From positions 1 through 36,587 of the IMG/VR virus record IMGVR_UViG_3300032607_000731: a stretch of 36,587 bases of DNA; one strand, 5' to 3'. Positions 6,102 to 28,909 of the stretch are shown here, piece after piece. Source of the stretch: a virus. A model generated the notes under the pieces. That model made no database searches and was not told the origin of the DNA. It worked only from the letters and a program-made list of their open reading frames with translations. Each line of letters starts with the position of its first letter. Position 1 is the first letter of the stretch. The position numbers and the translations under genes are program-made.

Positions 6102-6269
6102 TTACGCGTCGGGCTTTGCCTCGGTGTGCAGCGCTGCGGCCTTCAGCATCACGCTCGACAGCTGCAGCGCGGGGCCAGGCTCTTCGCCCCGGACCACGCC
6201 ATCCATATAAATCTGGATGTCCACCTTGCCGTCGGGCGCGTCAACCAGGGTGAGTGCGATAGCTGCCAT
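6102..6269 (-). CDS. Small conserved-position protein (55 aa), unknown function
   Basis: The frame reads from ATG 6269 to TAA 6102 (MAAIALTLVDAPDGKVDIQI, ending HTEAKPDA). Its ATG overlaps the DUF2815 stop in ATGA, which is the main evidence that it is translated. It begins with a beta-strand-rich half (VDAPDGKVDIQIYMDGVV) and ends in a helix (ALQLSSVMLKAAALHTEA). I recognise no family. It could be a small partner of the DUF2815 or polymerase product. Confidence 0.65.
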   Translation of the reverse strand: MAAIALTLVDAPDGKVDIQIYMDGVVRGEEPGPALQLSSVMLKAAALHTEAKPDA

Positions 6270-10661: not shown

Positions 10662-11360
10662 TCAACCGTCTTCCCACTTGCCCAGTACGGTGCCCAGCAC
10701 CTTGAATTTTTCGCGGATGGGTTCGTGGGACAGGTTCAGCGGCTGGAGCCACTTGCGGCCATCCTCGTTTTTGAAGACCTTGAAGGTCACCTCGTCAGAG
10801 CCTTCGAGGCAGGCCACCACGCGGTCGCCGTTGTCGGGCATGCGCTTTTCGGGGTCTACAAAAATGAAGCAGCCCTCGGGGTAGGTGCGGCCGTGGGGCG
10901 CGGTCATGGAGTCGCCGCGCACGCGCAGGGTAAAGGTGCTGCTGGTGTGGTTCACCGGGCAGTCGAACCAGCGCTCAGCCTCACCAGGTGGCAAAAGGTC
11001 TTCTGCTTTGCACCATGCGCCGGCCTGAATCCATGAGATCAACGGTACCCGGCCACGGATGTCGGGGCCGGGGGAGACGTTAGAAGCAGGGGCACTTCCA
11101 ATAATTGTTTGTATGCCGCTGGCGTCTTGCACTTCTTTAGCCAGTCTTGGGCTAATTTGCGCAATTGAACACTTCAAACCCGTGGCATAGGTTATTGCAG
11201 CCTCAAGACTCACGGGCCGATGGCCACTGCAATGCTGGCTGAGCATTGAAGCGCCGCCTGGGACTTTGAATTGCCGAGCGAATGCAGCTTTATTGCTCAC
11301 GCTTTGAAAAAGCCGCGTGAGATTGGCTGCCTCTTGTTCTTTTGTCCAGATTTCTAACAT
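10662..11360 (-). CDS. LexA/CI-type repressor with S24 self-cleaving peptidase domain
   Basis: The 232-residue protein is the likely lysogeny repressor. An N-terminal DNA-binding segment (1-75) includes KAAFARQFKVPGGASMLSQH and is followed by an S24/LexA domain. The cleavage site is Ala113-Gly114 (WIQAGAW), the nucleophile Ser151 (RGDSM) and the general base Lys194 (VTFKVF), so it should self-cleave when RecA is activated, linking induction to DNA damage. The start codon at 11358-11360 touches the operator at 11360-11374, leaving no room for a normal ribosome binding site, so the message may be leaderless as for lambda cI. Palindromes of identical type at 9012-9051 suggest that it also silences the leftward operon. 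Confidence 0.93.
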   Translation of the reverse strand: MLEIWTKEQEAANLTRLFQSVSNKAAFARQFKVPGGASMLSQHCSGHRPVSLEAAITYATGLKCSIAQISPRLAKEVQDASGIQTIIGSAPASNVSPGPDIRGRVPLISWIQAGAWCKAEDLLPPGEAERWFDCPVNHTSSTFTLRVRGDSMTAPHGRTYPEGCFIFVDPEKRMPDNGDRVVACLEGSDEVTFKVFKNEDGRKWLQPLNLSHEPIREKFKVLGTVLGKWEDG

Positions 11361-11430: not shown

Positions 11431-11763
11431 ATGGAAACATCAAAAACCCCGTTCAAAGAAGCTTGCGACATTGTTGGCTCACAGGCTGAAATGGCAAGAA
11501 TTCTTGCCATCACACCCGGCATGGTGAGTCAGCTTGCCAACGGTCATCGGCCCGTCCCAATCGAACACTGCTTGGCAATTGAGCGGGCCGTCAGTGGGCA
11601 GATCACGCGTCAAGCACTTCGACCAAAAGACTTTCGTCGCATCTGGCCCGACTTGTCTTCCGCCGACCCCATCCTCGAAGCTCAAATAGCCGAAGCAGCC
11701 AAGGCCGGCTTGATCGAGCGCCGCGTCGGCCCGGCTGATCGCCGCATCAAGAAATCCGCCTGA
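11431..11763 (+). CDS. Cro/YdaS-like helix-turn-helix regulator
   Basis: The 110-residue protein opens the rightward operon, with AAAGGG directly before its ATG. Residues 8-60 form a YdaS/Cro-type HTH: KEACDIVGSQAEMARILAI, then TPGMVSQLANGHRPVPIEHC, and RQALRPKDFRRIWPDL. Proteins of this type serve as Cro in many proteobacterial phages. It faces the S24 repressor gene across three operators, so it most likely competes for these sites and pushes towards lytic growth. The C-terminal 35 residues are basic and helical. An antitoxin role as in the YdaS-YdaT pair is an alternative, but no YdaT-like gene follows. Confidence 0.85.
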   Translation: METSKTPFKEACDIVGSQAEMARILAITPGMVSQLANGHRPVPIEHCLAIERAVSGQITRQALRPKDFRRIWPDLSSADPILEAQIAEAAKAGLIERRVGPADRRIKKSA

Positions 11764-14846: not shown

Positions 14847-15077
14847 GTGCAGGTGGCTGTCAATGAGATTGGTCGGCGCGTGGGGGACAGCCACCACAAC
14901 GCGAAGCTAACAAACCATGAGGTCGAGCTGCTGCTGGTCATGTACCAGGAGGGCCTGGGCTACCGCCGGCTGGCCGCCAAGTTCGAGATCAGCAAGAGCC
15001 AGGTGCGCAATATCTGCAAGGGCAGGGCGCGGTGCCAGTCGGCCAGTGACTGGCGTACGGTGCACGTAACCGGCTAG
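14847..15077 (+). CDS. Small helix-turn-helix protein (76 aa)
   Basis: The likely start is GTG 14847 (a second GTG at 14853). The central part KLTNHEVELLLVMYQEGLGY followed by RRLAAKFEISKSQVRNICKG is a clear resolvase/MerR-like HTH in which the recognition helix would be SKSQVRNICKG. Such proteins often sit just before the terminase genes in phages and may act as a late-gene regulator or terminase accessory factor. The 12-base repeat CGGTGCACGTAA overlaps the end of the gene. Confidence 0.7.
   Translation: MQVAVNEIGRRVGDSHHNAKLTNHEVELLLVMYQEGLGYRRLAAKFEISKSQVRNICKGRARCQSASDWRTVHVTG
15058..15069 (+). repeat. CGGTGCACGTAA repeat, copy 1
   Basis: First of four exact copies in the same orientation. 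It overlaps the end of the HTH gene and ends 20 bases before the small terminase ATG. Confidence 0.8.
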
Positions 15078-15089
15078 GCCCGGCCCACC

Positions 15090-15530
15090 ATGGGCTGCAT
15101 GTACCGAGACCGACAACTCCTTATCCTTGAAATTTGCGAGCGCCTGAGCGAGGGTGAGCCGCTGGCCCATATCTGCCGGGATCCGCACATGCCCGGCATC
15201 ACGGCCGTCTGGGCCTGGGCAAAGGACAACGCCGAGTTTTCCGAAAGCATCGCACGCGCACGCGAGGCGGGTTTTGACATCATCGCTGCTGACTGCCTGG
15301 AGATATCCAACACGCCGCGCATGGGCACCAAGGTCGTCAGCAAAGAGTGGGGCAAAGAGATCACCGAGGCGGACATGATCGAGCACCGCAAGCTGCAGAT
15401 CGATACGCGCCTGAAGCTGCTGGCCAAGTGGGATCCCAAGCGCTACGGCGACAAGCAGCAGGTGGAGCTCAGCGGCCAGGTGGACACGGTGGCCACCCTG
15501 ATTGCAGCGCGCAAACGCAGTGGCCGCTGA
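15090..15530 (+). CDS. terS: Terminase small subunit
   Basis: The 146-residue protein fits the small terminase family used by BPP-1-like and many other phages: an N-terminal HTH (ILEICERLSEGEPLAHICRD, then MPGITAVWAWAKDN), a helical oligomerisation region (FSESIARAREAGFDIIAADC) and a conserved end with LQIDTRLKLLAKWDPKRYGD. It recognises phage DNA and recruits the large subunit for packaging. It is directly upstream of the large terminase. The start at ATG 15090 gives a typical length; a second ATG lies three codons in. Confidence 0.88.
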   Translation: MGCMYRDRQLLILEICERLSEGEPLAHICRDPHMPGITAVWAWAKDNAEFSESIARAREAGFDIIAADCLEISNTPRMGTKVVSKEWGKEITEADMIEHRKLQIDTRLKLLAKWDPKRYGDKQQVELSGQVDTVATLIAARKRSGR

Positions 15531-15542
15531 ATGGGATCTACC

Positions 15543-15590
15543 TATCGAAAAAGTACTGGTTTTTTTACCCTCGATAACAGTAGATTATCG
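15543..15590 (+). promoter_or_regulatory. Two overlapping, mutually exclusive inverted repeats at the large terminase start
   Basis: TATCGA (15543-15548) can pair with TCGATA (15571-15576), and CGATAA (15572-15577) can pair with TTATCG (15585-15590). The two stems share 15572-15576 and cannot form together. The second stem ends on the first base of the GTG start codon of the large terminase, which has no recognisable ribosome binding site. The stretch is AT-rich against high-GC flanks and includes A5 and T7 runs. A translation or transcription switch is possible. Confidence 0.45.
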
Positions 15591-17158
15591 TGACTAAAGC
15601 TAAAAACGAGCACCCTGAATTGATGCTGGCCACGGATCTGGCCAGCTTCTACGACGACCCGCTGGGCTTCGTCATGTACGCATTCCCCTGGGACACCGAC
15701 CCTACGCTGCAGCTGGTGAAGCTGTCCAGCCCCTGGGATCTGATCTACGGCAGCGACTATGGGCCCGATGCCTGGGCCTGCGAGCTGCTGGAGAGCATTG
15801 GCCAGGACGTGTGCGACCGCAAGTTCGACGGGGTCACGGCCGTGCCGCCCATCCAATACGCAGTGAGTTCAGGACACGGCATTGGCAAGTCGGCCATGGC
15901 GGCCTGGCTGACGCTATGGATCATGTCCACCCGGCCCCACAGCAAGGGCGTGGTGACCGCCAACACCGGCGAGCAGCTCAGCTCCAAGACCTGGGCCGGC
16001 GTGAGCACCTGGCTGGCCAAGTCAATCGTGCGGCACTGGTTCACCATCACCACCGGCAAGGGGGCCATGCGCCTCATGCACAAGCAGTTCCCCGACAGCT
16101 GGCGGGTGGACGCCCAGACCAGCCGCGAGGAGAACAGCGAGTCGTTTGCCGGCCTGCACGCGGCCAGCTCCACGCCGTGGTATTTGTTCGACGAGGCCAG
16201 CGCCATCCCCAGCAAGATCTGGGAAGTGGCCGAGGGCGGCAAGACCGATGGCGAGCCGATGCACTTCTGCTTTGGCAACCCAACCCGCAATACGGGCGCG
16301 TTCGCTGAGTGCTTTGGCAAGCAGCGCCACCGCTGGAACGTGCGGATGATCGACTCGCGCAGCGTGGCCATTACCAACAAGACGCTGCTCGGCCAGTGGG
16401 TGCGCGACTACGGTGAAGACAGCGACTTCGTGAAGGTGCGCGTGCGGGGCGTGTTCCCGAATGCGTCCAGCCTGCAGTTCATCCCGCGCGAACTGGTGGA
16501 CGAGGCCATGACACGCCAGCCAGCTGCCGAGCGCTTCATCGGTCGCACCGCGGCCATCGGGGTGGACGTGGCGCGCTTTGGCGATGACCAGAGTGTGATC
16601 CGCACCCGGGTGGGGCGCGACGGCGTGGGGATTGCCGTGAAGCGCTACCGCGAGCTCGACACCATGCAGCTGGCCAGCCGGGTGGCTGAGCACATCGACT
16701 ACGTCAAGAGCATGGGCATGGTGCCGGTGGTGTTCGTCGACGGCGGCGGCGTGGGCGGTGGCGTGGTCGACCGGCTGCGCCAGCTCAACCATGACGTGGT
16801 CGAGGTCCAGTTCGGCGGCAAGGCTGACGACGCCCGCAAGTACCTCAACAAGCGGGCCGAGATGTGGGGCCGGGCCAAGGAGTGGCTGAAGATCGGCTGC
16901 CTGGCCAAGGACGAGGCGCTGGTGACCGACCTGACCAGCGTCGAGTACCAGTACACCGCCAGCGACCAGATCCAGCTCGAGAGCAAGGAGCACATGAAGC
17001 AGCGCGGCCTGGCCAGCCCAGACGATGGCGATGCGCTGGCGCTGACCTTTGCCTATCCCGTGCCGGAGTACCAGCTGCCCAAGGAGTCCGCACACGGTGC
17101 ACGTAACAGCAGCCCCAGGCGCGAGTATGACCCGTACCAATCATTGAACCAAGGCTGA
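15590..17158 (+). CDS. terL: Terminase large subunit
   Basis: The 522-residue packaging motor starts at GTG 15590 (an ATG at 15623-region is less likely because it would shorten the family N-terminus). The ATPase domain has Walker A SGHGIGKS (94-101, K100) and Walker B WYLFDEAS (D201, E202). The RNase H-fold nuclease has D326 in IGVDVARFGDD, D384 in VVFVDGGGVGG and a C-terminal DDGDALALTFAYP. It cuts concatemers and pumps DNA into the prohead with the small subunit and portal. The 3' end codes a polar tail in which the second CGGTGCACGTAA repeat is read in frame. Confidence 0.96.
   Translation: MTKAKNEHPELMLATDLASFYDDPLGFVMYAFPWDTDPTLQLVKLSSPWDLIYGSDYGPDAWACELLESIGQDVCDRKFDGVTAVPPIQYAVSSGHGIGKSAMAAWLTLWIMSTRPHSKGVVTANTGEQLSSKTWAGVSTWLAKSIVRHWFTITTGKGAMRLMHKQFPDSWRVDAQTSREENSESFAGLHAASSTPWYLFDEASAIPSKIWEVAEGGKTDGEPMHFCFGNPTRNTGAFAECFGKQRHRWNVRMIDSRSVAITNKTLLGQWVRDYGEDSDFVKVRVRGVFPNASSLQFIPRELVDEAMTRQPAAERFIGRTAAIGVDVARFGDDQSVIRTRVGRDGVGIAVKRYRELDTMQLASRVAEHIDYVKSMGMVPVVFVDGGGVGGGVVDRLRQLNHDVVEVQFGGKADDARKYLNKRAEMWGRAKEWLKIGCLAKDEALVTDLTSVEYQYTASDQIQLESKEHMKQRGLASPDDGDALALTFAYPVPEYQLPKESAHGARNSSPRREYDPYQSLNQG
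17095..17106 (+). repeat. CGGTGCACGTAA repeat, copy 2
   Basis: Exact copy inside the last codons of the large terminase, ending 55 bases before the next gene's ATG. It is translated as part of an HGARN stretch in a poorly ordered tail. Confidence 0.8.
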
Positions 17159-17161
17159 ATC

Positions 17162-17521
17162 ATGTGTGAACCTGTATCCATTGGCCTGGCGCTGGGGGCG
17201 TCTGCCAGCACTGCTGCTGCGGTGGGCACCATGGCCTACATCGGCGCGGCCGGCGTAGTGGGCCAGGCCTACAGCGCCAACCAAGCCAAGGGCGCGCAGC
17301 AAGACGCCAGCAACCAGGCCACCGCTGCGGCCAAGGTGCAGGCCGACCAGGCCGACCAGGCCAACAACCGTGCCAACGCCAAAGGCCCTGACATCGGCGC
17401 GATGGACTCGGCCAACTCCATGGCGGCCAAGGGCGGCCAGAGCGGCACGCTGCTGACCGGCGCGCTGGGCGTGGATCCCAAGAGCCTGCTGCTGGGCAAG
17501 TCCACCTTGCTGGGCGGCTAA
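17162..17521 (+). CDS. Small Ala/Gly-rich structural-type protein before the portal
   Basis: The 119-residue protein starts MCEPVSIGLALGASASTAAA, with a hydrophobic, small-residue helix (to about residue 38), a polar Gln/Ala-rich helix (residues 38-70) and a conserved-looking end GQSGTLLTGALGVD and LLLGKSTLLGG. This end pattern recurs in proteins located between large terminase and portal in BPP-1-like phages, from memory. It may be a minor virion or head-completion protein. Its beginning resembles that of the gp14-like protein at 26176, so both may insert into membranes. Confidence 0.75.
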   Translation: MCEPVSIGLALGASASTAAAVGTMAYIGAAGVVGQAYSANQAKGAQQDASNQATAAAKVQADQADQANNRANAKGPDIGAMDSANSMAAKGGQSGTLLTGALGVDPKSLLLGKSTLLGG

Positions 17522-17524
17522 GCG

Positions 17525-19201
17525 ATGGCTGAACTCGCGCCACGCGAGCGCCTGTACACCCGCTGGTCTGCGCTCAAGAGCGAACGCGCAAGCTGGTGGG
17601 GCCATTACCAGGAGCTCAGCGACTTCATCCTGCCGCGCTCGGGCCGGTTCTTTTTGCAAGACCGCAACCGGGGCAACAAGCGCCACAACAACATCTACGA
17701 CAACACCGGCACCAAGGCGCTGCGCGTGCTGGCCGCTGGCATGATGGCTGGCATGACCAGCCCGGCGCGGCCATGGTTTCGCCTGGCCACACCGGACGCG
17801 GACCTGAACAACAGCCCGGCCGTCAAGCTGTGGCTCAGCCAGGTCACGCGGTTGACGCTCGACATCTTCGCCAAGTCCAACACCTACCGCGCGCTGCACA
17901 GCATGTACGAGGAGCTGGGCACGTTCGGCACGGCGTCGAGCATCATCATGCCGGACTTCAAGAACGTCATTCACCACTATCCGCTCACCACGGGCGAATA
18001 CTGCATCGCGCAGGACTGGCGCGGCAACGTGGTCACGCTGTACCGCGAGTTCCAAAAGACGGTGGGCGAGATGGTCACCGAGTTTGGCCGCGACAAGTGC
18101 TCGACCAGCGTGCAGAACCTGTGGGACCGGGGCAGCCTGGACCAGTGGATCACCATCATCCACGCCATTGAGCCGCGCACCGACCGCGACGCCTCCAAGC
18201 GCGACAGCCTGAACATGCCGTGGAAGTCAGTCTACTTCGAGTTGAACAATGCGGACAAGGGCCGCTTCCTGAGCGAGTCGGGCTTTAAGAACCTGCCCGC
18301 AATCGCTGCGCGTTGGGCGACCAGCGGCGGCGACGTGTACGGCAACAGCCCCGGCATGGACGCGCTGGGTGACATCAAGCAGCTGCAGCACGAGCAGATG
18401 CGCAAGGCCCAGGGCATCGACTACATGACCAAGCCGCCCATCCAGGTGCCTGCCAGCATGAAGGGCCGCGACGTGGACACGCTGCCGGGCGGCATCAGCT
18501 ATGTGGACCAGGCGGGGCCGGCCGGGGGCATCCGCACCGCGTTCGATGTGCGCATTGACCTGAGCCACCTGCTGGGCGACATCCAGGACGTGCGCGAGCG
18601 CATCCGGGGCGCATTTTCTGCGGATTTGTTTTTGATGCTGGCCAACTCCACCAACAGCGCCATGACCGCCACGGAAGTGGCAGAGCGGCATGAGGAAAAG
18701 ATGCTCATGCTTGGCCCCGTGGTTGAGCGCCTGCACTCGGAAATGCTCGACCCGCTGATCGAAGCCACGTTCGAGCACGCGCTGGCCGCCGGCATCGTGC
18801 CGCCGCCGCCGCCCGAACTGCAAGGCATGGACCTGAACGTCACCTATGTCTCGATGCTGGCGCAGGCCCAGCGCGCTATTGCCACCAACGGCGTGGACCG
18901 GTTCGTCGGCAACTTGGGCCAGATCGCCAGCTTCAAGCCTGACATCTTGGACAAGTTTGATTCCGACATTTGGGCCGACAAATACAGCGACATGCTGGGC
19001 GTCGATCCCGAGTTCATCGTGCCGTCCGACAAGGTGGCCCTGATCCGCAACCAGCGCGCCAAGCAGCAGGCGCAAGCCGCGCAAGTCGCCCAGGCCGAGC
19101 AGGCTGCATCGGCTGCGCAAAAGCTGGGCACCGTCGCCACCCCGAACGGCAACGCCGGCAACGACATCATGCAAGCCTTCTCGGGCTACACCACTTCCTA
19201 A
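17525..19201 (+). CDS. Podovirus portal (head-to-tail connector) protein
   Basis: At 558 residues this is the usual size of a T7-type portal. The N-terminus ERLYTRWSALKSERASWWGH and ELSDFILPRSGRFF, the segment LRVLAAGMMAGMTSPARPWF and the central GDVYGNSPGMDALGDIKQLQ are characteristic of connector proteins of short-tailed phages. The later NSTNSAMTATEVAERHEEK precedes the stem and crown helices. The C-terminus is rich in Gln and Ala (KQQAQAAQVAQAEQAA), consistent with the barrel. Twelve copies should form the vertex through which DNA passes. It lies 3 bases after the previous gene. Confidence 0.94.
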   Translation: MAELAPRERLYTRWSALKSERASWWGHYQELSDFILPRSGRFFLQDRNRGNKRHNNIYDNTGTKALRVLAAGMMAGMTSPARPWFRLATPDADLNNSPAVKLWLSQVTRLTLDIFAKSNTYRALHSMYEELGTFGTASSIIMPDFKNVIHHYPLTTGEYCIAQDWRGNVVTLYREFQKTVGEMVTEFGRDKCSTSVQNLWDRGSLDQWITIIHAIEPRTDRDASKRDSLNMPWKSVYFELNNADKGRFLSESGFKNLPAIAARWATSGGDVYGNSPGMDALGDIKQLQHEQMRKAQGIDYMTKPPIQVPASMKGRDVDTLPGGISYVDQAGPAGGIRTAFDVRIDLSHLLGDIQDVRERIRGAFSADLFLMLANSTNSAMTATEVAERHEEKMLMLGPVVERLHSEMLDPLIEATFEHALAAGIVPPPPPELQGMDLNVTYVSMLAQAQRAIATNGVDRFVGNLGQIASFKPDILDKFDSDIWADKYSDMLGVDPEFIVPSDKVALIRNQRAKQQAQAAQVAQAEQAASAAQKLGTVATPNGNAGNDIMQAFSGYTTS

Positions 19202-19208
19202 GGCATCC

Positions 19209-19520
19209 ATGGAAAACATGAACATCAAGTCCGAGGGCGGCGAATGCTACCCGTCGGGCGACTACGACTGCAGCCCCACGATCCACTTGAGCGATGAGCA
19301 GTGTGAGGCGCTGGGCATTACCACGGCACCGGCGCCCGGCACGGTCTACATGCTCAAGGTGCGCGCCGTCGCCACCCGCGTGACGGCTGAAGCGGAGGAG
19401 GCTGACGAGGTCAAGGCAGAAGGCAATGCGCCCGACATCAGCCTGACGCTCAAGCTGACCGACATCGAGATTGCGCAGGGAGGCGGCAAGGACGCGGCCT
19501 CGATGCTGTACGGCGACTGA
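19209..19520 (+). CDS. Probable capsid staple/decoration-type protein
   Basis: The 103-residue protein contains IHLSDEQCEALGI followed by PAPGTVYMLKVRAVATRV and a late ISLTLKLTDIEIAQG. That is the pattern of small phage proteins currently named capsid staple protein in annotated genomes: a short acidic start, a YPSGDYD-like patch and a beta-rich core. The family link is by recollection. Its place between portal and scaffold genes supports a head role. Confidence 0.6.
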   Translation: MENMNIKSEGGECYPSGDYDCSPTIHLSDEQCEALGITTAPAPGTVYMLKVRAVATRVTAEAEEADEVKAEGNAPDISLTLKLTDIEIAQGGGKDAASMLYGD

Positions 19521-19521
19521 G

Positions 19522-19533
19522 CGGTGCACGTAA
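19522..19533 (+). repeat. CGGTGCACGTAA repeat, copy 3
   Basis: Exact copy in the 45-base gap between two genes, one base after the staple-type gene's stop and 32 bases before the next ATG. Together with copy 4 the identity extends to GAGCGGTGCACGTAA (15 bases). Confidence 0.8.
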
Positions 19534-19565
19534 GCCGCTGACGCGCTTTTAACCTGCAGTCCTCT

Positions 19566-19874
19566 ATGAGCCATTACGACCCTCTCGACACCGACAGCCA
19601 GGACAAGGCGCGCGTTGACTCCCGCACGCGGGACAAGCTCGCGCAGCAGACTGAGGCCGAGGATGTCAAGTGGCTCATGTCTAGCAAGCGCGGCCGGCGC
19701 ATCGTCTGGCGGGTGCTCGACCGGGCAGGTGTTTACCGCCTCTCGTTCAACACCAACTCCATGACGATGGCGTTTGCCGAAGGCGCCCGCAACGAAGGCC
19801 TGCGCATGCTGGCCACGATTCACGCAGCTTGCCCCGACATGTACGCAACGATGCAGAAAGAAGCCATCGAATGA
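19566..19874 (+). CDS. Bbp19-like phage protein
   Basis: The 102-residue protein has the pattern of the family named after BPP-1 Bbp19: VKWLMSSKRGRRIVWRVLDR, then AGVYRLSF, then MAFAEGARNEGLRMLATI and CPDMYATMQKE. It is helical and mostly charged at the start. The function is not known to me, but its constant position beside scaffold and capsid genes suggests assembly. Its stop overlaps the scaffold ATG in ATGA. Confidence 0.75.
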   Translation: MSHYDPLDTDSQDKARVDSRTRDKLAQQTEAEDVKWLMSSKRGRRIVWRVLDRAGVYRLSFNTNSMTMAFAEGARNEGLRMLATIHAACPDMYATMQKEAIE

Positions 19875-20611
19875 GATTCCGCCAATTTCGCCTGCAAAAC
19901 GCCGAGGGGGCAGAAGGCTCCACTGGCGGCGCTGCACCGACAACCCTTATGACTGACGGTGCAAATACCACACCAGCCGGCAGTTCTACCGCATCGACTG
20001 AAGCGACGGGCACGCCCGCTGCCGGCGTCGATGCAAACCAGCAGCCCTTGACCGATGCCCAAAAGGCGGATGCAGCGGCGACCAAGGAAGCAGCCGACAA
20101 GACCGCAGCCGATGAAGCCGCGGCCTTGAAAGCCGCCGAGAAGGTTGCGCCCGAGAAGTACGAGCTCAAGGCGGCCGATGGCCAGGCCCTTGATCCCGAA
20201 GCGCTCGGCGAGTTGGAGGGCATCGCCCGCGAACTCAAGCTGTCCAACGAGGAAGCGCAGAAGGTGACCGACATCGGCGCGAAGCTCGCGCAGAAGTGGG
20301 AAGCCAAGCAGGCCGACACCATCCAGAAGGCTGCGGCCGAATGGGCGGCATCGGCCACGGCGGACAAGGAATACGGCGGCGAGAAGCTGACCGAGTCCTT
20401 GGCCACTGCCAAGAAGGCGCTCGACGCCTTCGGCACGCCGGAACTGCGCTCGCTGCTGAACGACTCCCGCCTGGGCAACCACCCTGAAGTCATCCGTTTC
20501 ATGGTGCGCGCCGGCAAAGCAATCTCCGAGGACCGCATGGTCACCGGCGGCGCCGGGCCAGCCACGGCCAGCGCCAACGTCGCCAAGTCCCTCTACCCCC
20601 ATCAGTCCTAA
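19871..20611 (+). CDS. Scaffolding protein
   Basis: The ATG at 19871 overlaps the previous stop, giving 246 residues; a longer upstream frame would overlap the Bbp19-like gene and is rejected. An ATG at 19950 is possible if the first 26 residues are dispensable. The sequence is dominated by Ala, Lys, Glu and Asp with a low-complexity first third (TPAGSSTASTEATG, then AAADKTAADEAAALKAAEK) and long helices (EALGELEGIARELKLSNEEA and EKLTESLATAKKALDAFG). This is typical of an internal scaffold that is expelled when DNA enters. It lies 12 bases before the major capsid gene. Confidence 0.85.
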   Translation: MRFRQFRLQNAEGAEGSTGGAAPTTLMTDGANTTPAGSSTASTEATGTPAAGVDANQQPLTDAQKADAAATKEAADKTAADEAAALKAAEKVAPEKYELKAADGQALDPEALGELEGIARELKLSNEEAQKVTDIGAKLAQKWEAKQADTIQKAAAEWAASATADKEYGGEKLTESLATAKKALDAFGTPELRSLLNDSRLGNHPEVIRFMVRAGKAISEDRMVTGGAGPATASANVAKSLYPHQS

Positions 20612-20623
20612 AGGAAAATTACC

Positions 20624-21643
20624 ATGGCTTTACTCGCAGCTGGCGCCCTTACCCTCGCAGACTGGGCCAAGCGCCTCGACCCGGACGGCCAAGTGCCCAA
20701 GGTCGCCGAACTGCTCTCGCAGACCAACGAGATTTTGGAAGACGCCGTGTTCATGGAAGGCAACTTGCCGACCGGCCACCGCCTGACCATCCGCACCGGC
20801 TTGCCCCAAGTGTTCTACCGCATGATCAACCAGGGCGTGCCGACTTCCAAGTCCACCACCGCCCAAATTGACGAAGCCTGCGGCATTTTGGAGGCCCGCA
20901 GCCACATCGACGTCGAGCTCGCAAAGCTCAACGGCAACACGGCGGCTTTCCGCCTGTCCGAAGACCAGGCCTTCATCGAAGCGATGAACCAGACCATGGC
21001 CGGCGCCATGTTCTACGGCAACCCCGCCACCGACCCGCGCCAGTTCCTCGGCCTGCAGACCCGCTACAGTTCGCTGTCGGCGGGTAACGGCGCCAACATC
21101 CTGGACGCAGGCGGTACGGGCAGCAACAACTGCTCGATCTACCTGTGCGTGTGGGGTGACAACACCGTGTTCTGCCCGTTCCCGAAGGGCACCAAGGCCG
21201 GCCTGATGCACCAGGACCTGGGCGAAGAGTCGGTGCCGGACTCCAGCGGTAACTTCTACCAGGCCATGCGCGCGCTGTACCAGTGGAAAAACGGCGTGGC
21301 CGTCAAAGACTGGCGCTACGTGGTGCGCATTGCCAACATCAACGTCACCGACCTGGTGGGCCAGTCCGGCACGCAAGCGGCCACCGCCGCCACGCAGATC
21401 ATCAACCTGATGAGCCGCGCCCTGGACCGCGTGCCCAACCTGTCCATGGGCCGCCCAGTGTTCTACGCCAACCGCACGCTGTACTCCATGCTGCGCGTCG
21501 CTGCGCTGAACAAGTCGAATGCCGCCCTCAGCGTTGAGCAGGCCCTGACCCAGTTCGGCACGCCGTACGCGCTGACCAAGTTCCTGGGCGTTCCTCTGCG
21601 CAAGGTCGATCAATTGTTGACGACCGAAAGCCGCGTGGTCTAA
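20624..21643 (+). CDS. Major capsid protein (BPP-1 type, HK97 fold)
   Basis: The 339-residue protein, preceded by a good AAAGGAAA, matches the BPP-1-like major capsid family. Landmarks are the start MALLAAGALTLADWAKRLDP, VAELLSQTNEILEDAVFMEG, LPTGHRLTIRTGLPQVFYR, NPATDPRQFLGLQTRY, the KNGVAVKDWRYVVRIANINV segment and GRPVFYANRTLYSMLR. The pattern fits an HK97-like shell protein of short-tailed phages. A very stable UUCG-loop hairpin follows its stop codon. Confidence 0.93.
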   Translation: MALLAAGALTLADWAKRLDPDGQVPKVAELLSQTNEILEDAVFMEGNLPTGHRLTIRTGLPQVFYRMINQGVPTSKSTTAQIDEACGILEARSHIDVELAKLNGNTAAFRLSEDQAFIEAMNQTMAGAMFYGNPATDPRQFLGLQTRYSSLSAGNGANILDAGGTGSNNCSIYLCVWGDNTVFCPFPKGTKAGLMHQDLGEESVPDSSGNFYQAMRALYQWKNGVAVKDWRYVVRIANINVTDLVGQSGTQAATAATQIINLMSRALDRVPNLSMGRPVFYANRTLYSMLRVAALNKSNAALSVEQALTQFGTPYALTKFLGVPLRKVDQLLTTESRVV

Positions 21644-21651
21644 AGCAAGCC

Positions 21652-21670
21652 GGGGCTTCGGCCCCTGTTT
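21652..21670 (+). terminator. GGGGC-TTCG-GCCCC hairpin after the capsid gene
   Basis: A 5-bp GC stem closed by a UUCG tetraloop is followed by TGTTTC. It lies 8 bases past the capsid stop. It could end part of the transcripts or protect the abundant capsid message from 3' exonucleases. Confidence 0.55.
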
Positions 21671-21693
21671 CAACCCCATTTCAGGAAAACACC

Positions 21694-22185
21694 ATGATTC
21701 TCGACAACGCTCTCTTTCTTTCCGGTGCAGTGTCTGCCACTGGCGTGCTGACCGGCCAGCTGGTCACGTCCAACAGCACGCTGTCCACCAACACGATGGA
21801 CCTCGGCCCCTTGTCGCTGGGCGGCAACCAGGTCGGCGACCTCGGCGGCGGCGAGTCGCTGGAAATTGCCATCGGCATCCTGGCAGCGCCTACCGCCGCC
21901 ACGACCGTGCAGTTCCAGCTGATTCAGGCCGACGATGCGGCGCTGACCTCGAACGTCCAGGTCATCAACCAGACCGATGCTTTCCCGATTGCCTCGCTGC
22001 CCGTCGGCACGCTGGTGCCTTTGCACGTTGACCGCGCCGCGCCTTACGCGCCCAAGCGCTACATCGGCGTGCGCTACATCGGCACCGGCACCGCGATTGC
22101 CACGCTGTCGGTCACGGCTGCTGTGGTCAAGAACGTCCAGGACCTGAAGAACATGTACTTCAAGTCCGGCTACTCCATCACCTAA
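21694..22185 (+). CDS. Bbp16-family capsid cement protein
   Basis: This 163-residue protein begins MILDNALFLSGAVSATGVLT and contains NTMDLGPLSLGGNQVGDLGG, GESLEIAIGILAAPTAATTV and an end LKNMYFKSGYSIT. It matches the beta-rich cement proteins known from BPP-1 (Bbp16), which bind the outside of the shell and strengthen it against internal DNA pressure. It directly follows the major capsid gene, as in that phage. The ribosome binding site is AGGAAA. A perfect GCCAGGC/GCCTGGC hairpin (22195-22214) without a T run lies after its stop. Confidence 0.88.
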   Translation: MILDNALFLSGAVSATGVLTGQLVTSNSTLSTNTMDLGPLSLGGNQVGDLGGGESLEIAIGILAAPTAATTVQFQLIQADDAALTSNVQVINQTDAFPIASLPVGTLVPLHVDRAAPYAPKRYIGVRYIGTGTAIATLSVTAAVVKNVQDLKNMYFKSGYSIT

Positions 22186-22257
22186 AGGGCCAGCGCCAGG
22201 CTTGCGGGCCTGGCCGCGCCATCACGCCAACCCTTCCTCAATCACTGAAAGAAGACC

Positions 22258-22569
22258 ATGCCCAAATACCGCGTCAAAGAGCTCTCGCTCATCGGCAACG
22301 AACTGTTCCAGGCCGGCGCCGAAGTCGAGTACGACGGCCTGCCCGCCGAAAACCTCGAACCGCTGTGCGACGAAGGCCGCGCCAAGTACCAGGAGTACTT
22401 GCTGAGCAACGAAACCCGCGTGCGCCGGATGGTCGCGCAAAACGCCGATAGCGCCGTGGGCGACCCGGCCGCGTTTGCTGCCGGCGTCACAGGCGCCATC
22501 AAGGAGCTGATTGCCCAGGGCGTGCTCGCCTCGCCGGCCAGCGCCAAAGGCAAGCCCAGCCTGGTGTAA
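22258..22569 (+). CDS. Small head-region protein, unknown function
   Basis: The 103-residue protein starts MPKYRVKELSLIGNELFQAG and EVEYDGLPAENLEPLCDEG, a beta-hairpin-like motif that many phages encode between capsid and tail genes, where it is described only as hypothetical. A helical segment (AAFAAGVTGAIKELIAQGVL) and a small-residue end follow. It may be a virion accessory protein. A strong terminator begins 22 bases after its stop. Confidence 0.7.
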   Translation: MPKYRVKELSLIGNELFQAGAEVEYDGLPAENLEPLCDEGRAKYQEYLLSNETRVRRMVAQNADSAVGDPAAFAAGVTGAIKELIAQGVLASPASAKGKPSLV

Positions 22570-22590
22570 AGCCCCGGCTGCGCAGTGAAC

Positions 22591-22617
22591 AAGGGGCCAG
22601 CGTGCCCCTTTTCTTTT
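22591..22617 (+). terminator. Rho-independent terminator between head and tail genes
   Basis: AAGGGGC-CAGCGT-GCCCCTT (22591-22610) is followed by TTCTTTT, and the tail gene's AAGGAG begins one base later. Head genes would be expressed above tail genes if it is partial. Otherwise the tail genes need their own promoter, which I do not see in the 14 bases left. Confidence 0.7.
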
Positions 22618-22631
22618 AAGGAGAAACGATT

Positions 22632-23309
22632 TTGGCCTCTGCCGTTGACATCTGCAACCAAGCGCTCAGCCACCTGGGCGACAGCGCCACCGTGGCCAGC
22701 ATCGAGCCGCCTGAGGGCTCCGCGCAGGCCGAGCACTGCGCACGCTTTTATCCCATGGCGCTCAATGCCTTGCTGGAGATGCACCCGTGGGCCTTTGCCA
22801 CCAAGCGCAGCACCTTGGCGCGGGTAGACAACCCCAGCACCACCTGGGCCTATTGCTATGCCATGCCCAGCAACACCATCAACTTGCTCTCGGTGCTGGC
22901 ACCCGACGCGGCAGACGACTACAGCGCCAGCGTGCAAACCAGCGCGTCCGCCTATGACAGCAGCTATGCCCGCAGCGCCCAGGGCGGCGCCTACACCCCG
23001 CAGGACTTCAACCCCGAGATCGACGAGGCCGGCAACGACATCATCCTGACCAACCAGCTGGGCGCCGTGCTGCGCTACACCGCGCTGGTGACCGACACCA
23101 CCAAGTTCAGCCCGTTGTTCGTCGAGTCGCTGGGCTGGCTGCTCGCCTCCAAGCTGGCCGGACCCGTGCTCAAGGGCGAAGTCGGCATGTCAGCCGCGCA
23201 AGCCTGCACCAAAACGTTTCTCTACTGGTTCGGCAAAGCCACCGACTCGGACGCCTCGCAGCGCCGCGCCACGCCCCGGCACCAAGTCGGCTGGATGAAC
23301 GCACGATGA
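22632..23309 (+). CDS. T7 gp11-like tail tubular protein A (adaptor)
   Basis: The 225-residue protein starts at TTG 22632, eight bases after a strong AAGGAG. It opens ASAVDICNQALSHLGDSATV, with a following AEHCARFYPMALNALLEMHP and WAFATKRSTLARV. These are the standard landmarks of the adaptor that forms a dodecameric ring under the portal. A later ALVTDTTKFSPLFVESLGWL and LASKLAGPVLKGEV complete the pattern. The gene overlaps the next by four bases (ATGA), coupling adaptor and nozzle synthesis. Confidence 0.9.
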   Translation: MASAVDICNQALSHLGDSATVASIEPPEGSAQAEHCARFYPMALNALLEMHPWAFATKRSTLARVDNPSTTWAYCYAMPSNTINLLSVLAPDAADDYSASVQTSASAYDSSYARSAQGGAYTPQDFNPEIDEAGNDIILTNQLGAVLRYTALVTDTTKFSPLFVESLGWLLASKLAGPVLKGEVGMSAAQACTKTFLYWFGKATDSDASQRRATPRHQVGWMNAR

Positions 23310-25666
23310 GCACGCGCAAGCTCACCATGGCCTTTTCCGGCGGCGAAGTCACGCCCGAGTTCTGGGGCCAGATCGGCGACGCCAAGTTTCAGTCTGGCTT
23401 GGCCACCTGCCGCAACATGCTCGTGCTGCCGCACGGCCCGGTGGCCAACCGCCCCGGCTTTGCCTTTGTCCGCGCCGTCAAGCTGCCTGCCAAGCGCACG
23501 CGCCTGATTCCCTTCACCTACAGCACCACGCAGACCATGGTGCTGGAGTTTGGCGACCAGTACGTGCGCTTTCACACGCAGGGTGCCACGCTGCTCTCGG
23601 GCGGCGTGCCTTACGAGGTCGCCACGCCCTACCTGGAGGCCGACCTGTTCGACCTGCACTATGTGCAGTCGGCCGACGTGCTCACGCTGGTGCACCCCAA
23701 CTACGCCCCGCGCGAACTCAAGCGACTGGGTGCGGCCAGCTGGGCCTTGAGCCTGGTCAACTTTGCGCCGGCGCTGGCTGCGCCTGGCAACCTGCAGGTG
23801 TCGAGCAACGAGAAAGGCAAGGACTACACCTACCGCTACGTCGTCACCGCCAGCGACGCGGCAGGGGTGGGCATCGAGTCGGCCGCCTCGCTCGAATCTG
23901 TGGGCGTGTCGTCATTCGGCCTGCTCGGTGCCACCAATGACAACCCTGGCGCATTTACCTTCAGCGGGGATTTGCGCAACAACATGGCCGTGGGCACCGA
24001 CGTCAAGTTCACCGCCGTGGGCGGCATGACCGCCGTCAACGGCGTTGTGTACACCGTGGGCACGATTGCCTACACGCCCAGCACATCCAGCGTGTGGGGC
24101 ACGGCCATCACCGAGCTCACGCTCAAGCTGGCGGGAACGCCACTGGACACCACGGCGATGGGCGCCTACACCTCGGGCGGCACGCTCGAAGCACGCTATT
24201 CCGGCGTCAAGAACAACCTCTACATCACCGGCGGCAAAAACGACATCAGCTGGAATGTCGTGCCCGGCGCCGTGCGCTACGACGTCTATAAGTTCCAGGG
24301 CGGTCTGTTCGGCTACATCGGCCAGTCGGCCACCACCAGCTTCACCGACGACAACATCACGCCCAACATGGGCAAGACTCCGCGCGTCGCAGAAAACCCG
24401 TTCAGCAGCGCCGGCAACTACCCCGGCGCCGTCAGCTACTTCGAGCAGCGCCGCTGCTTTGCCGGCTCGATCAATGAGCCGCAAAACCTGCGCATGACCC
24501 GATCGGGCACCGAATCGGACTTTGCCTACTCGCTGCCGCTGCGCGACGACGACCGCATCAACGTGCGCGTGGCCGCGCGCGAAGCCAACACCATCCGCCA
24601 CATCGTGCCGCTGGCCAACCTGGTGCTGCTGACGGCCGCCGCCGAGTGGCGCGTGACCAGCGTCAACTCCGACGCCATCACGCCGAGCTCGATCAGCGTC
24701 AAGCCGCAAAGCTACATCGGCGCGAGCAACGTGCAGCCGGTGATCGTCAACAACAACATCATCTTCGTGGCCAGCCGGGGCAGCCACCTGCGCGAGATGA
24801 CTTACAGCCAGCAGGCCAACAACTTTTCGGGCGGCTACCTGAACGGCGACCTGTCCCTGCGCGCGCCGCACCTGTTTGACGGGCTGGACATCGTGGACAT
24901 GGCCTACGCCAAGGCGCCATTCCCCACTGTGTGGGCCGTCAGCACGTCAGGCAAGCTGCTGGGCCTGACCTACGTGCCCGAGCAGCAGGTGGGCGCCTGG
25001 CACCAGCACGACACCGACGGAGCTTTCGAGTCCTGCTGCGTCGTGGCAGAAGGCGCCGAAGACGTGCTCTACGCCGTGGTCCGGCGCACGATTGGCGGCG
25101 TGGCTACGCGCTACGTCGAGCGCCTGCACAGCCGGCAGTTCACCGCACCCGCCGATGCTTTCTTCGTGGACTGCGGCGCCACCTATGACGGCGCGGCCAC
25201 CACCATCGTCAGCGGCCTGAACTGGCTCGAAGGCAAGACCGTCAGCGTGCTGGGCGACGGCGCCGTGTTCCCGCAGAAGGTCGTCACGGGCGGCGCTATC
25301 ACGCTCGAGCAGGCTTGCACCAAGGTGCAGGTGGGCCTGCCCATCACCGCCGACGTGCAGACGCTGCCCCTGTCAGCCCAGATCGACGCTGCCTACGGGC
25401 AGGGCCGGCTGAAGAACCTCAACAAAGTCTGGCTGCGCGTGTACCGCTCCTCGGGCGTGTTTGCCGGGCCGTCGGTGGACCGGCTGGTGCAGTTCAAGCA
25501 GCGCACCACCGAAGCCTATGGCGCCGCGCCGGCGCTGCGCACCGACGAGCTGGAGATCACGCTGGAGCCCAGCTGGCAGTCCGGCGGCCAGATCTACGTG
25601 CGCCAGTCGGACCCGCTGCCGCTGACACTGGTGTCAATGACGGTGGAGGCCGCGCTCGGTGGCTAA
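23306..25666 (+). CDS. T7 gp12-like tail tubular protein B (nozzle)
   Basis: At 786 residues it has the size of podovirus nozzle proteins. The N-terminus TMAFSGGEVTPEFWGQ, LATCRNMLVLPHGPVANRPG and RTRLIPFTYSTTQTMVLEFG are standard for the family, followed by beta-rich segments with fibronectin-like repeats (YTYRYVVTASDAAGVGIES) and ISPSSIS-type loops. Annotations sometimes call this protein 'ubiquitin-activating E1 FCCH domain', a misleading hit. Hexamers form the tail tube end. The stop lies inside the next gene's start region (8-base overlap). Confidence 0.9.
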   Translation: MSTRKLTMAFSGGEVTPEFWGQIGDAKFQSGLATCRNMLVLPHGPVANRPGFAFVRAVKLPAKRTRLIPFTYSTTQTMVLEFGDQYVRFHTQGATLLSGGVPYEVATPYLEADLFDLHYVQSADVLTLVHPNYAPRELKRLGAASWALSLVNFAPALAAPGNLQVSSNEKGKDYTYRYVVTASDAAGVGIESAASLESVGVSSFGLLGATNDNPGAFTFSGDLRNNMAVGTDVKFTAVGGMTAVNGVVYTVGTIAYTPSTSSVWGTAITELTLKLAGTPLDTTAMGAYTSGGTLEARYSGVKNNLYITGGKNDISWNVVPGAVRYDVYKFQGGLFGYIGQSATTSFTDDNITPNMGKTPRVAENPFSSAGNYPGAVSYFEQRRCFAGSINEPQNLRMTRSGTESDFAYSLPLRDDDRINVRVAAREANTIRHIVPLANLVLLTAAAEWRVTSVNSDAITPSSISVKPQSYIGASNVQPVIVNNNIIFVASRGSHLREMTYSQQANNFSGGYLNGDLSLRAPHLFDGLDIVDMAYAKAPFPTVWAVSTSGKLLGLTYVPEQQVGAWHQHDTDGAFESCCVVAEGAEDVLYAVVRRTIGGVATRYVERLHSRQFTAPADAFFVDCGATYDGAATTIVSGLNWLEGKTVSVLGDGAVFPQKVVTGGAITLEQACTKVQVGLPITADVQTLPLSAQIDAAYGQGRLKNLNKVWLRVYRSSGVFAGPSVDRLVQFKQRTTEAYGAAPALRTDELEITLEPSWQSGGQIYVRQSDPLPLTLVSMTVEAALGG

Positions 25667-26126
25667 GGTCCGGCTGGTCATCCCTGGCGCGCATCACCTT
25701 CGCCTGATCGCGCAGCGCCTGCGCCAGGCTGACCGGCAAGAACTCGCCGCCATGCACGGCGCAGGCCTGGACCTGCTGGAATGCCTGCAAACCGCCGTCA
25801 GCGCCAGCGAAGAGGCGTTTGTCGCGCTGGCTGGCGACGAGCCCATTGCCGTGTTCGGCGTTGCGCCCGTCTGCTTGTTGGGCGGCATGGGCTGCCCGTG
25901 GCTGTTGGGCACCGATGCCATGGACAGGCGTGGGCGCGAGATCGTCACGATCAACCGCCAGCACGTGGCGCGCTGGGGCCAGCGCTACACCTGCCTGTTC
26001 AACTACGTGGACGCGCGCAACCTGCGCTCCATTGCCTGGCTGCGCCATACCGGCTTCATCGTCTGGCCGGCCGAGCCCCGCGGCCTCAACGGTGAGCCCT
26101 TCCACCGCTTCGAGCGGTGCACGTAA
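25659..26126 (+). CDS. GNAT-fold protein resembling T7 internal virion protein gp13
   Basis: The 155-residue protein starts at GTG 25659. Its core, with EEAFVALAGDEPIAVFGVAP, PWLLGTDAMDR and ARNLRSIAWLRHTGFIV, follows a GNAT acetyltransferase-like fold, also seen in T7 gp13 and DUF2833 proteins. The acetyl-CoA loop is not well conserved, so enzymatic activity is doubtful and a virion role is preferred from context. The final codons and stop (TAA at 26124-26126) lie inside CGGTGCACGTAA copy 4. Confidence 0.75.
   Translation: MAKVRLVIPGAHHLRLIAQRLRQADRQELAAMHGAGLDLLECLQTAVSASEEAFVALAGDEPIAVFGVAPVCLLGGMGCPWLLGTDAMDRRGREIVTINRQHVARWGQRYTCLFNYVDARNLRSIAWLRHTGFIVWPAEPRGLNGEPFHRFERCT
26115..26126 (+). 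repeat. CGGTGCACGTAA repeat, copy 4
   Basis: Exact copy that supplies the stop codon of the gp13-like gene and ends 49 bases before the next ATG. Upstream identity with copy 3 extends three further bases (GAG). Confidence 0.8.
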
Positions 26127-26175
26127 CCCGGAGTTGACCCCGCACAGTCAAGCCCATTCCACCACCGGGTTTGAT

Positions 26176-26746: not shown

Positions 26747-28909
26747 TTGCCGCGCGTTCCAACCTATGACAACTTCCAGACTCAAGTGTCTGGCCAGCCC
26801 AATGTGCAGCTGCAGGCGCCCAGCGGCCCCACGCCCGGCAGCATTGCGGCCGAGCAGGCCAGCCAGTTCGGCCAGGCCGCTACGCGCGCAGGCGATGCCG
26901 CCGGGCGCATTGCGCTCGACGTGGCAGACCAGGCCAACCAGGTGCGCGTCAACGATGCACGCAACCAGCTCGCGATTGCCCAGCAGGACCTGACGTACAA
27001 CAAGGACAGCGGCTTCCTGACCCGGAAGGGCGCCAATGCGTTTTTGGACAACGAAGGCAAGCCACTGGAAAAGCCGCTCGACCTGGACTATGGCGAAAAG
27101 CTCAAGGCCCAGATCGACGGCATCAGCGCCAACCTGGGCAACGACGCCCAGCGCAAGGCATTTGGCCAGCACGCCGGCAGCGCCGCCGCGCAGTTCCACG
27201 GCCAGCTACAAAGCCACACGCTCAAGGAGTTCGGCCAGTACAAGGATGCCACCGACGACGCCACGGCCAAGCTGGCCGGGCAGAGCGCCGGGCTGAACTG
27301 GAATAACCCCGACGCGGTGAATGCCTCGCTGGGCCAGGCCAAAGCCGCCATCCGCTCCAAAGCCGAGCGCGCCGGGCTGGTGGGCACGCCGTTCGACGAA
27401 GCCGTGCTCGCCGGTACCAGTGCCATCCATGAACGCGTGATTCAGGCGGCGCTGCAGAACCGCAACCCAGCCTATGCCGCGACCTACATGAAGGAGGCGC
27501 GCGAGAAGGGTGAGATGACCGCGAGCGACATCATGAAAGTGCAAGGCCATATCACCGAGGCCGATGCGCTCAAGCAGTCGCAGGCTGCTGTGCAGCAGCA
27601 AACGGTGGCCGCCATGCCGGCAATTGCGCCGACGGGCTTTGACCGGCTGAAGGCTGTCCGGACACAGATTGAATCGGGCAGCATGGGCGACTTTAAGCCG
27701 GATGGCACGCCGGTCACCTCATCGGCGGGGGCGAAATACAAGAACCAGGTGATGGATGCCACGGCAGCTAACCCTGGGTTCGGGATTAAGCCGGCCAACA
27801 CCAGCGGAACCCCGCAGCAGGTGGCCGCCGAATACAACCGTGTTGGTGATGAACTGCTTGAAAAGCTTGTCCAGAAATACGGGAACGCTTCGCAGGCTTT
27901 GGCGGCGTACAACGCTGGGTCTGGCCGGCTGGATCAGGCACTCAAGGATGCGGCCAAGGGGCGCAGCGGCAGCAGTGACTGGCTGAGCTACATGCCGCCA
28001 GAGACCCAGGCCTATGTAGCCAAGGCAACCAAGATTCTGGCTGGCAGCGGCCCCGTGGCTCCGCGCCCGACCGAACTCGATTTTGTCAACGGCGCGCTGG
28101 CCCGGCTTGGCCCGGATGCTTCGCCGCAGGCCGTCAAGCACACCACCGAGGCCGCGCGCACGCAGTTCGGCGTCATCAACAAGACGCTGAATGAAAAGGG
28201 CGACAACGCGCTGGCCGATGCGCAGCGCTGGGTGCTCGACAACAAGGCCACCAGCCTGGCGCAGTTGCCGCCGCCTCTCAAGGATGCCCTGATGCAGTTC
28301 GCGCCCGGCAAGATGGACGACCTGGGCAACTTCGCCAAGGCGCAGGGCAACGTGCCGACCGACTGGCCGACCTATACCGCCTTGCGCGCCCTGGCCGCCA
28401 ATGAGCCGAAGGCCTTTGCCGCGACGGATCTGCGCCAGCACTTCATGGCTTTGGCGCCCGCTGAGCGCGAAAAGCTCGTTGACCTGCAAACCAAGGCCAA
28501 GACGCCTGAGGGTCAGAACGACATCGCCACGCTTGGGCAGCAACTCGCCACGGCGCATGGCCTGCTGGGCCTGAAAAACAGCGACCACAAGAAAAAAGGC
28601 CAGTTTGACGATGCGGTCACCCAGGCGCTGGCCGCTGAAAAGCGCGACAAGGGCAAGGCGCTCACCTTCGAGGAGCGCGACCGGGTCATCAAGCGAATGA
28701 TGCTGCCGGCGCGCGACCTTGAAACCTCTTGGATTTCCGACGAAAAGCGCATCTACCAAGTTGCCGGAACGCCCGACGAAAAACAGCGGCCGCCCAACTT
28801 GGGCGACGACGACCGCAAGCTCATCACCATCGCACTCGCAGACGAAGGCGTGCAACCCACAGAACAGAACATTACTGCGCGCTTCAAGCTGCGCTACGGA
28901 ATCAAATGA
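26747..28909 (+). CDS. Internal virion protein with lytic transglycosylase domain
   Basis: The TTG at 26747 follows GGGAG by seven bases and gives 720 residues (an ATT six bases earlier is an unlikely alternative). Residues 1-290 are helical virion-core sequence (SIAAEQASQFGQAATRAGDA). At about 295-400 lies a lytic transglycosylase domain: catalytic Glu309 in RTQIESGSMGDF, then TSSAGAKYKNQVMD, and ALAAYNAGSGRLDQAL near 385-400. It should open the peptidoglycan during DNA ejection, like the T7 gp16 N-terminus. The remaining 320 residues are helical. Codon usage in 27640-27975 (the enzyme domain) differs from the flanks, suggesting a swapped domain. The stop overlaps the giant gene's start by 4 bases (ATGA). 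Confidence 0.92.
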   Translation: MPRVPTYDNFQTQVSGQPNVQLQAPSGPTPGSIAAEQASQFGQAATRAGDAAGRIALDVADQANQVRVNDARNQLAIAQQDLTYNKDSGFLTRKGANAFLDNEGKPLEKPLDLDYGEKLKAQIDGISANLGNDAQRKAFGQHAGSAAAQFHGQLQSHTLKEFGQYKDATDDATAKLAGQSAGLNWNNPDAVNASLGQAKAAIRSKAERAGLVGTPFDEAVLAGTSAIHERVIQAALQNRNPAYAATYMKEAREKGEMTASDIMKVQGHITEADALKQSQAAVQQQTVAAMPAIAPTGFDRLKAVRTQIESGSMGDFKPDGTPVTSSAGAKYKNQVMDATAANPGFGIKPANTSGTPQQVAAEYNRVGDELLEKLVQKYGNASQALAAYNAGSGRLDQALKDAAKGRSGSSDWLSYMPPETQAYVAKATKILAGSGPVAPRPTELDFVNGALARLGPDASPQAVKHTTEAARTQFGVINKTLNEKGDNALADAQRWVLDNKATSLAQLPPPLKDALMQFAPGKMDDLGNFAKAQGNVPTDWPTYTALRALAANEPKAFAATDLRQHFMALAPAEREKLVDLQTKAKTPEGQNDIATLGQQLATAHGLLGLKNSDHKKKGQFDDAVTQALAAEKRDKGKALTFEERDRVIKRMMLPARDLETSWISDEKRIYQVAGTPDEKQRPPNLGDDDRKLITIALADEGVQPTEQNITARFKLRYGIK

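Follow-up and report, generated by a model that had tools for sequence, protein, structure and literature searches.

Predicted late promoters of BPP-1-like podoviruses carry a lineage-specific box, the probable target of a small helix-turn-helix protein

The IMG/VR virus record IMGVR_UViG_3300032607_000731, a DNA stretch of 36,587 bases analyzed here in full and referred to as the window, has the gene content of a temperate podovirus and contains four exact copies of the 12-mer CGGTGCACGTAA at junctions between its late genes. The left part of the window encodes integrase, CI-like repressor, DNA polymerase, and helicase genes on the minus strand; the right part carries, on the plus strand, primase/helicase, terminase, and head and tail genes, including those for Bbp16- and Bbp19-like proteins. 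The large replication open reading frames (ORFs) correspond to DNA polymerase, primase/helicase, helicase, and exonuclease, and no phage-encoded (T7-like) RNA polymerase was detected among the 30 ORFs scanned, in a window that is incomplete at its right end. An ORF for a 76-amino acid helix-turn-helix (HTH) protein immediately precedes the terminase genes. An earlier sequence-only reading of the window had drawn attention to the repeat and had named this HTH protein as a candidate for binding it.

A recount agreed with that reading: the four copies of CGGTGCACGTAA are all on the plus strand, at the positions given in Table 1, and none is found on the minus strand. Four copies were reached in none of 100 dinucleotide shuffles (expected number 0.00). 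It is the sole four-copy 12-mer of the window; four-copy 11-mers are many, and the near-matches to the 12-mer at 1870 and 26953 are at chance level. Copy 1 falls within the final codons of the HTH ORF, copy 2 is translated inside the terminase large subunit (terL) ORF (15590-17158), copy 3 begins 2 nucleotides (nt) past the stop of ORF 19209-19520, and copy 4 supplies the TAA stop of ORF 25659-26126, much as the sequence-only reading had described; copies 3 and 4 share the 15 bases GAGCGGTGCACGTAA that it had noticed. Its estimate that such a word should be rare was right in kind, and the search of host DNA that it had suggested gave 36 matches in 26 of 60 genomes of the Janthinobacterium sp. 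CG3 family, or about 0.6 copies per genome, similar to a reversed-word control, with most genomes holding zero or one copy. Janthinobacterium sp. CG3 is the host of a related prophage.

A near-identity DNA search of GenBank phages produced weak matches only, and protein searches were therefore used to collect relatives with similar terminases and portals. In BPP-1-like temperate podoviruses, boxes are present at the same four junctions: where the HTH gene ends or before the terminase small subunit gene (terS), where terL ends, before the Bbp19-like gene, and where the tail/ivp gene ends and the gp14-like gene follows, this fourth junction being defined by the ends of tailB and ivp155. Close relatives (L005, L028, L029, and L037) have CGGTGCACGTAA at these junctions, and more distant relatives have another word there, in three or four copies each, so that each lineage has its own. 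Lineage boxes include GGTGCACGTAA, GGTGCGCGTGA, GGTGTACCTAT, and GGTACCCGTAT, and further examples are GGTGCGCGTAA, AGTTGCCTTAC, GGTGTCCATAA, CGACGTACATA, and GGTGTACAAGC. The expectation that related phages would show conservation was thus borne out for the junctions and not for the word. Conservation of place without conservation of sequence suggests that the word is recognized by a reader that is not the same in every lineage. The central palindrome GTGCAC, which the sequence-only reading had singled out as a feature, is not conserved, other lineages having GTGTAC, GTGCGC, GTACCC, or TTGCCT there, and it was ruled out as a functional core. Among more distant relatives that have the portal gene without the HTH gene, no such set of boxes was found at the junctions.

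The model phage BPP-1 (NC_005357) has four exact GGTGCCCGTGCC boxes, each accompanied by a -10-like element, and located before terS (bbp26), after terL, before bbp19, and in the gap that separates bbp10 from bbp9. Its protein Bbp27 is encoded at the same place as the HTH protein of the window and is 48% identical to it. The boxes of the two phages differ, and the last box in BPP-1 precedes bbp9-mtd-avd-brt, whereas that of the window precedes the gp14-like gene. The fourth BPP-1 box with its -10 element (TAGCCT) is at position 6185 on the minus strand of NC_005357 (L114), in the bbp10/bbp9 gap, and because bbp9, mtd, avd, and brt follow, it is predicted to drive the tropism-switching, diversity-generating retroelement cassette. 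The spacer and the start of this promoter lie within a strong terminator-like hairpin (-30 kcal/mol, z -4.8), so the full hairpin could probably form only in read-through RNA and not in RNA begun there. In the window, a 2619-codon reading frame that resembles the giant bbp10 (28729-36585) runs off the right end; the record is therefore incomplete, and if another late promoter lay farther on, as it does in BPP-1, it would escape notice. For Bbp26 (TerS; NC_005357 (L107), 16176-16760), the annotated start is upstream of the predicted promoter, and the true start is probably an ATG that follows the box at 16200 by about 40 nt.

Sites were gathered by box and place, not by downstream sequence, and 124 dereplicated sites, less than 72% alike, were aligned on the box. 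A Y-A-N-N-N-T motif follows the box at a constant spacing of 16 nt, with little information between the two; the A (column 28) is present in 120 and the T (column 32) in 122 of the 124 sites. When BPP-1 and the sites found using the -10 pattern were left out, A-N3-T was present at this offset in 108/112 sites, against 29 for the next best offset and a mean of 3 for the others. The motif has the features of a sigma70-type -10 element (A at -11, T at -7, and a predicted start 6 to 8 nt downstream), which places the box at -39 to -28. A -35 element is not recognizable: with spacers of 16 to 18, the best match to TTGACA has one to three of the six letters in all 124 sites, and the box occupies the position, while the TG of an extended -10 is present in only six sites. 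The lack of a usable -35 element and the rarity of the extended -10 are as expected of an activator-dependent promoter. In the window, the combined box and -10 score of the four sites is 21.9 to 25.0; everything else on both strands scores at most 10.3, and block shuffles reach 12.6. Judged from sequence, the four repeat sites are almost certainly late promoters of the sigma70 type. The common box and -10 rule was also recovered in 13/13 previously unused, held-out loci, with scores of 1 to 5 compared with a 99th percentile of 1 for shuffled junctions, and several of these loci have new box words (GGTACCCCTG, GGTACACGTACC, CGTCCGCGTGGG, and AGTACCCGTAA).

The predicted transcription start is frequently C-A, and at two of the junctions a start codon nearly always lies at it or within 4 nt of it. 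All 31 sites before the Bbp19-like gene have the -10 element and an ATG or GTG at -2 to +4 of the predicted +1, and 25 of the 26 terS sites have an ATG or GTG at 0 to +4. The signal defined for leaderless genes is TANNNT about 10 to 12 nt upstream of the start codon (PMC3160421), and it is present at the terS and Bbp19 sites relative to the sequence-predicted starts. In the window, the longest-ORF start of TerS (15090) lies inside the predicted -10 element, and the likely start is the ATG at 15099; the spacing of 20 to 55 nt between repeat and next start, as given by the sequence-only reading, holds apart from this choice of TerS start. The pair of candidate starts shows how automatic annotation can go wrong where phage genes are leaderless.

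The HTH gene lies just upstream of terS and terL in about 60 loci. Nearly all loci of sufficient length that were returned by a search seeded with the HTH protein had these terminase and portal neighbors, and no second phage type was found. The AlphaFold model (73 residues; mean predicted local distance difference test score 80.5) is a three-helix HTH with helices at residues 20-31, 36-43, and 47-54 and flexible ends. Its structural neighbors include Hin (1ijw), the Tn3 and gamma-delta resolvases (5cy1, 1gdt), and Tc3, with Z scores of 4.8 to 5.5, Hin and Tn3 resolvase ranking among the best matches; a Foldseek search with the model gave no significant match, and matches to Pfam HTH_38 and Sigma70_r4 are below the cut-off. 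The model contains one three-helix HTH only, and not the regions 2 and 4 that a sigma factor combines in one protein. The 76-amino acid ORF likewise has no catalytic domain that would make it a serine recombinase or an HNH endonuclease. PHROG 6156, named "endonuclease", matches 33/39 members of the HTH family and is probably the source of the RefSeq name of Bbp27, which is annotated as an endonuclease yet consists of an HTH protein only. Matches to PHROG 836 ("late transcriptional activator"; 8/39 members) and to NF005385 (4/39 members), both considered for membership of the RinA, ArpU, and Ltr families, are weak, partial, and far below the cut-off.

Across 42 genomes, box distance correlates with recognition-helix distance (Mantel r 0.39), and the partial correlation with portal distance removed is 0.32 (p 0.0005). 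Asp at alignment position 50 of the helix accompanies G at box position 5 in 9/9 training genomes (p 1.6e-6), and in the held-out loci G5 is found in 3/3 with Asp50 and 0/10 without it (p 0.0035); the pattern had been seen in the training table before the held-out set existed, the formal test came later, and residues and bases of the held-out loci were assigned by visual inspection. The portal tree implies at least seven changes of Asp50; in a mean of 6.6 of seven independent pairs the base of the box followed, and it never went in the opposite direction (sign test, p 0.016). The portals of L007 and L008 are 98.5% identical, yet the two have different helices and different boxes at every copy, and the pairs L062/L063 and L071/L075 show the same switch of helix and box at about 90% portal identity. 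A further rule, that Ser at the helix start goes with A at box position 5, distinguished 20/25 from 0/17 training genomes; it was rejected on the held-out exceptions L149, L151, and L154. The covariation backs the earlier proposal of the HTH protein as a candidate for the site, and we consider it highly probable that this protein is the reader of the box. That the protein and all its boxes change together suggests that each lineage has its own specificity.

Taken as a whole, the explanation that we find likely is that these are late promoters whose box is read by the HTH protein as an activator. The HTH protein would be produced at the end of early expression and would bind each box as a monomer; once bound, it would recruit host RNA polymerase to the four -10 elements, the 12-bp asymmetric box at -39 to -28, exactly 16 bp upstream of the -10, taking the place of the -35 element. 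Transcription of terS and of the Bbp19-like gene would begin at the start codon or within a few bases of it, giving leaderless mRNAs. DNA binding by the HTH protein, activation, monomer binding, the exact start sites, and late timing are all predictions drawn from comparative sequence data. Several observations weigh against this explanation. The N-terminal half of the HTH protein covaries with the box no less well than the helix, which makes single-residue assignments uncertain. With Z scores of 5.7 or less, the structural matches are to a small HTH fold that is widespread, and so they support DNA binding only. These searches found no box in the HTH-bearing Caulobacter phage Jess A (L110/L111) or in L106, L112, and L120, and at least two of the 13 held-out loci score at or below the shuffled 99th percentile, the lowest scorers being marginal. 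At the terL-end sites the letters of the -10 overlap codons of the conserved EYDPY tail, and the sites were selected by box recurrence, though not by the -10.

The sign of regulation is the point on which the nearest alternative differs: the box could be an operator at which the HTH protein, sitting over the -35 region, silences host-readable promoters until late infection. A site that overlaps the -35 is sterically suited to repression, HTH proteins this small are often repressors, and covariation of box and HTH is silent on the matter. Promoters with neither a usable -35 nor an extended -10 should be weak when unaided, however, and a blocking protein would need no invariant 16-bp gap in 124 sites; we therefore regard repression as unlikely and activation, as against repression, as very likely. 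It is slightly less probable again that the HTH gene is a mere neighbor and that the box is a -35 element for an alternative sigma factor of the host or for another phage factor, such as a Cro-like one. A fixed gap between box and -10 is a hallmark of sigma recognition, and other early regulators are present, for example the YdaS/Cro-like ORF at 11431-11763. A common host sigma factor would forbid a box that varies widely among related phages and switches in near-identical backgrounds, and the switches follow the HTH helix on seven independent branches.

Roles for the box in RNA or DNA other than as a promoter element, namely as a processing site, a recombination linker, or a packaging or uptake word, would suit its position at module junctions and the closeness of the first box to the terminase genes. 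They are very improbable given the invariant -10 spacing, the start codons at +1, and a lineage-specific sequence that tracks a DNA-binding protein. The late-gene activator site and the internal promoter element that the sequence-only reading had listed fit the data; its RNA-processing site does not, because the box, which keeps a constant spacing to the -10 element, precedes the predicted transcription start and is hence outside RNA made there, nor does its recombination linker, because the box sequence varies by lineage while place and -10 spacing stay fixed. Chance repetition in a GC-rich genome might be entertained for a word of only 12 nt in a window with many four-copy 11-mers. It has next to no probability in view of the shuffles, the other words at the same junctions of relatives, and the held-out loci compared with shuffled junctions, and was already refuted by the conserved place.

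Activator boxes at several promoters without a good -35 are also a feature of phages P2 (Ogr) and T4 (MotA), which the promoters described here resemble; the MotA box replaces the -35 at a fixed distance from the -10. Ogr is a zinc-finger protein with a site near -55, and MotA is unrelated and requires AsiA. The DNA-binding domains of Hin and of the Tn3 and gamma-delta resolvases share with the HTH protein a three-helix HTH preceded by a Gly-Arg arm, and a single Hin domain recognizes a half-site roughly 12 bp long, which is also the length of the box; unlike Hin and the resolvases, the HTH protein has no recombinase domain and its predicted sites are promoters. It is also like the HTH part of phage HNH and homing endonucleases (PHROG 6156), but has no nuclease domain. 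Protein C of phage Mu belongs to a family other than the Hin/resolvase-type HTH. The Mu late promoters Plys, PI, PP, and Pmom have poor -10 and -35 elements and are activated by C (PMC4461284), so the predicted system is like that of Mu in having one small phage activator, several separate late promoters, and host RNA polymerase. C binds upstream of the -35 (PMC4461284), unlike the box described here, which overlaps the -35 with an invariant 16-bp gap. Late activators encoded next to terS are known in staphylococcal phages (RinA/Ltr) and in lactococcal phage TP901-1 (Alt); these have three or four repeats upstream of one promoter, from -107 to -42 in Phi13 and from -76 to -32 for Alt (PMC13123087). 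In contrast, there is here one box per promoter at four promoters, overlapping the -35, and no specific family match.

As far as our searches could tell, the combination of one -35-overlapping box per promoter, an invariant 16-bp gap, a widely diverged Hin-type mini-protein as predicted reader, and leaderless starts is new. We found no description of Bbp27, of Rauchvirus promoters, or of BPP-1 late transcription in the open-access literature, most subscription journals being outside the search, and late gene control in BPP-1-like phages, including the model phage of diversity-generating retroelements, appears to be undescribed in the literature searched. The analysis provides exact, testable promoter positions for the whole clade, corrects start codons, and names a putative activator among proteins annotated as hypothetical or as endonuclease. 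Leaderless late mRNAs, as predicted, would be unusual for highly expressed genes of proteobacterial phages. The protein-box pairs form a natural specificity series that includes near-identical phages, so that rules of HTH-DNA recognition and orthogonal activator-promoter pairs are directly testable. We propose more tentatively, as a possibility that may well fail, that a one-domain Hin-like protein of 70 to 90 amino acids could serve host RNA polymerase across this whole clade of temperate podoviruses as an interchangeable reader of the -35 region, with many mutually exclusive box specificities, driving leaderless late mRNAs and the BPP-1 retroelement cassette.

Table 1. Predicted late promoters and adjoining features of the window
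Feature	Coordinates	Strand	Comment
76-amino acid HTH protein, proposed late activator	14847-15077	+	Hin/resolvase-type HTH with Gly-Arg-Arg N-terminal arm
Box 1, CGGTGCACGTAAC	15058-15070	+	Predicted late promoter before terS; box columns 0-11 are 15059-15070
-10 element CACCAT, promoter 1	15086-15091	+	Fixed 16-nt gap rule; predicted +1 at about 15098-15099
Terminase small subunit	15099-15530	+	PHROG 1482; relatives begin at the equivalent ATG; predicted leaderless
Box 2	17095-17107	+	Within the terminase large subunit gene, at its 3' end; the pre-portal gene (17162) follows
-10 element GAGTAT, promoter 2	17123-17128	+	Predicted +1 at about 17135; overlaps codons of the EYDPY tail
Box 3	19522-19534	+	Before the Bbp19-like gene (ATG 19566)
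-10 element TAACCT, promoter 3	19550-19555	+	Predicted +1 at about 19562, 4 nt before the ATG
Box 4	26115-26127	+	Contains the stop codon of ORF 25659-26126; the gene for the gp14-like internal virion protein (ATG 26176) follows
-10 element CACAGT, promoter 4	26143-26148	+	Predicted +1 at about 26155; leader of about 21 nt

L036 has two boxes ahead of terS (6734 and 7209), of which one is located where the HTH gene ends and the other immediately precedes terS, and five candidate promoters in total. L108 (PQ492659), Limnohabitans phage DC33, is assigned to the Inoviridae in its taxonomy line; its late region is that of a BPP-1-like podovirus and has three GGTACCCGTAT boxes. In the window, the ORF at the Cro position (11431-11763) adjoins the gene for the CI-like repressor (10662-11360) and has a strong match to the YdaS family (Pfam, 66 bits).

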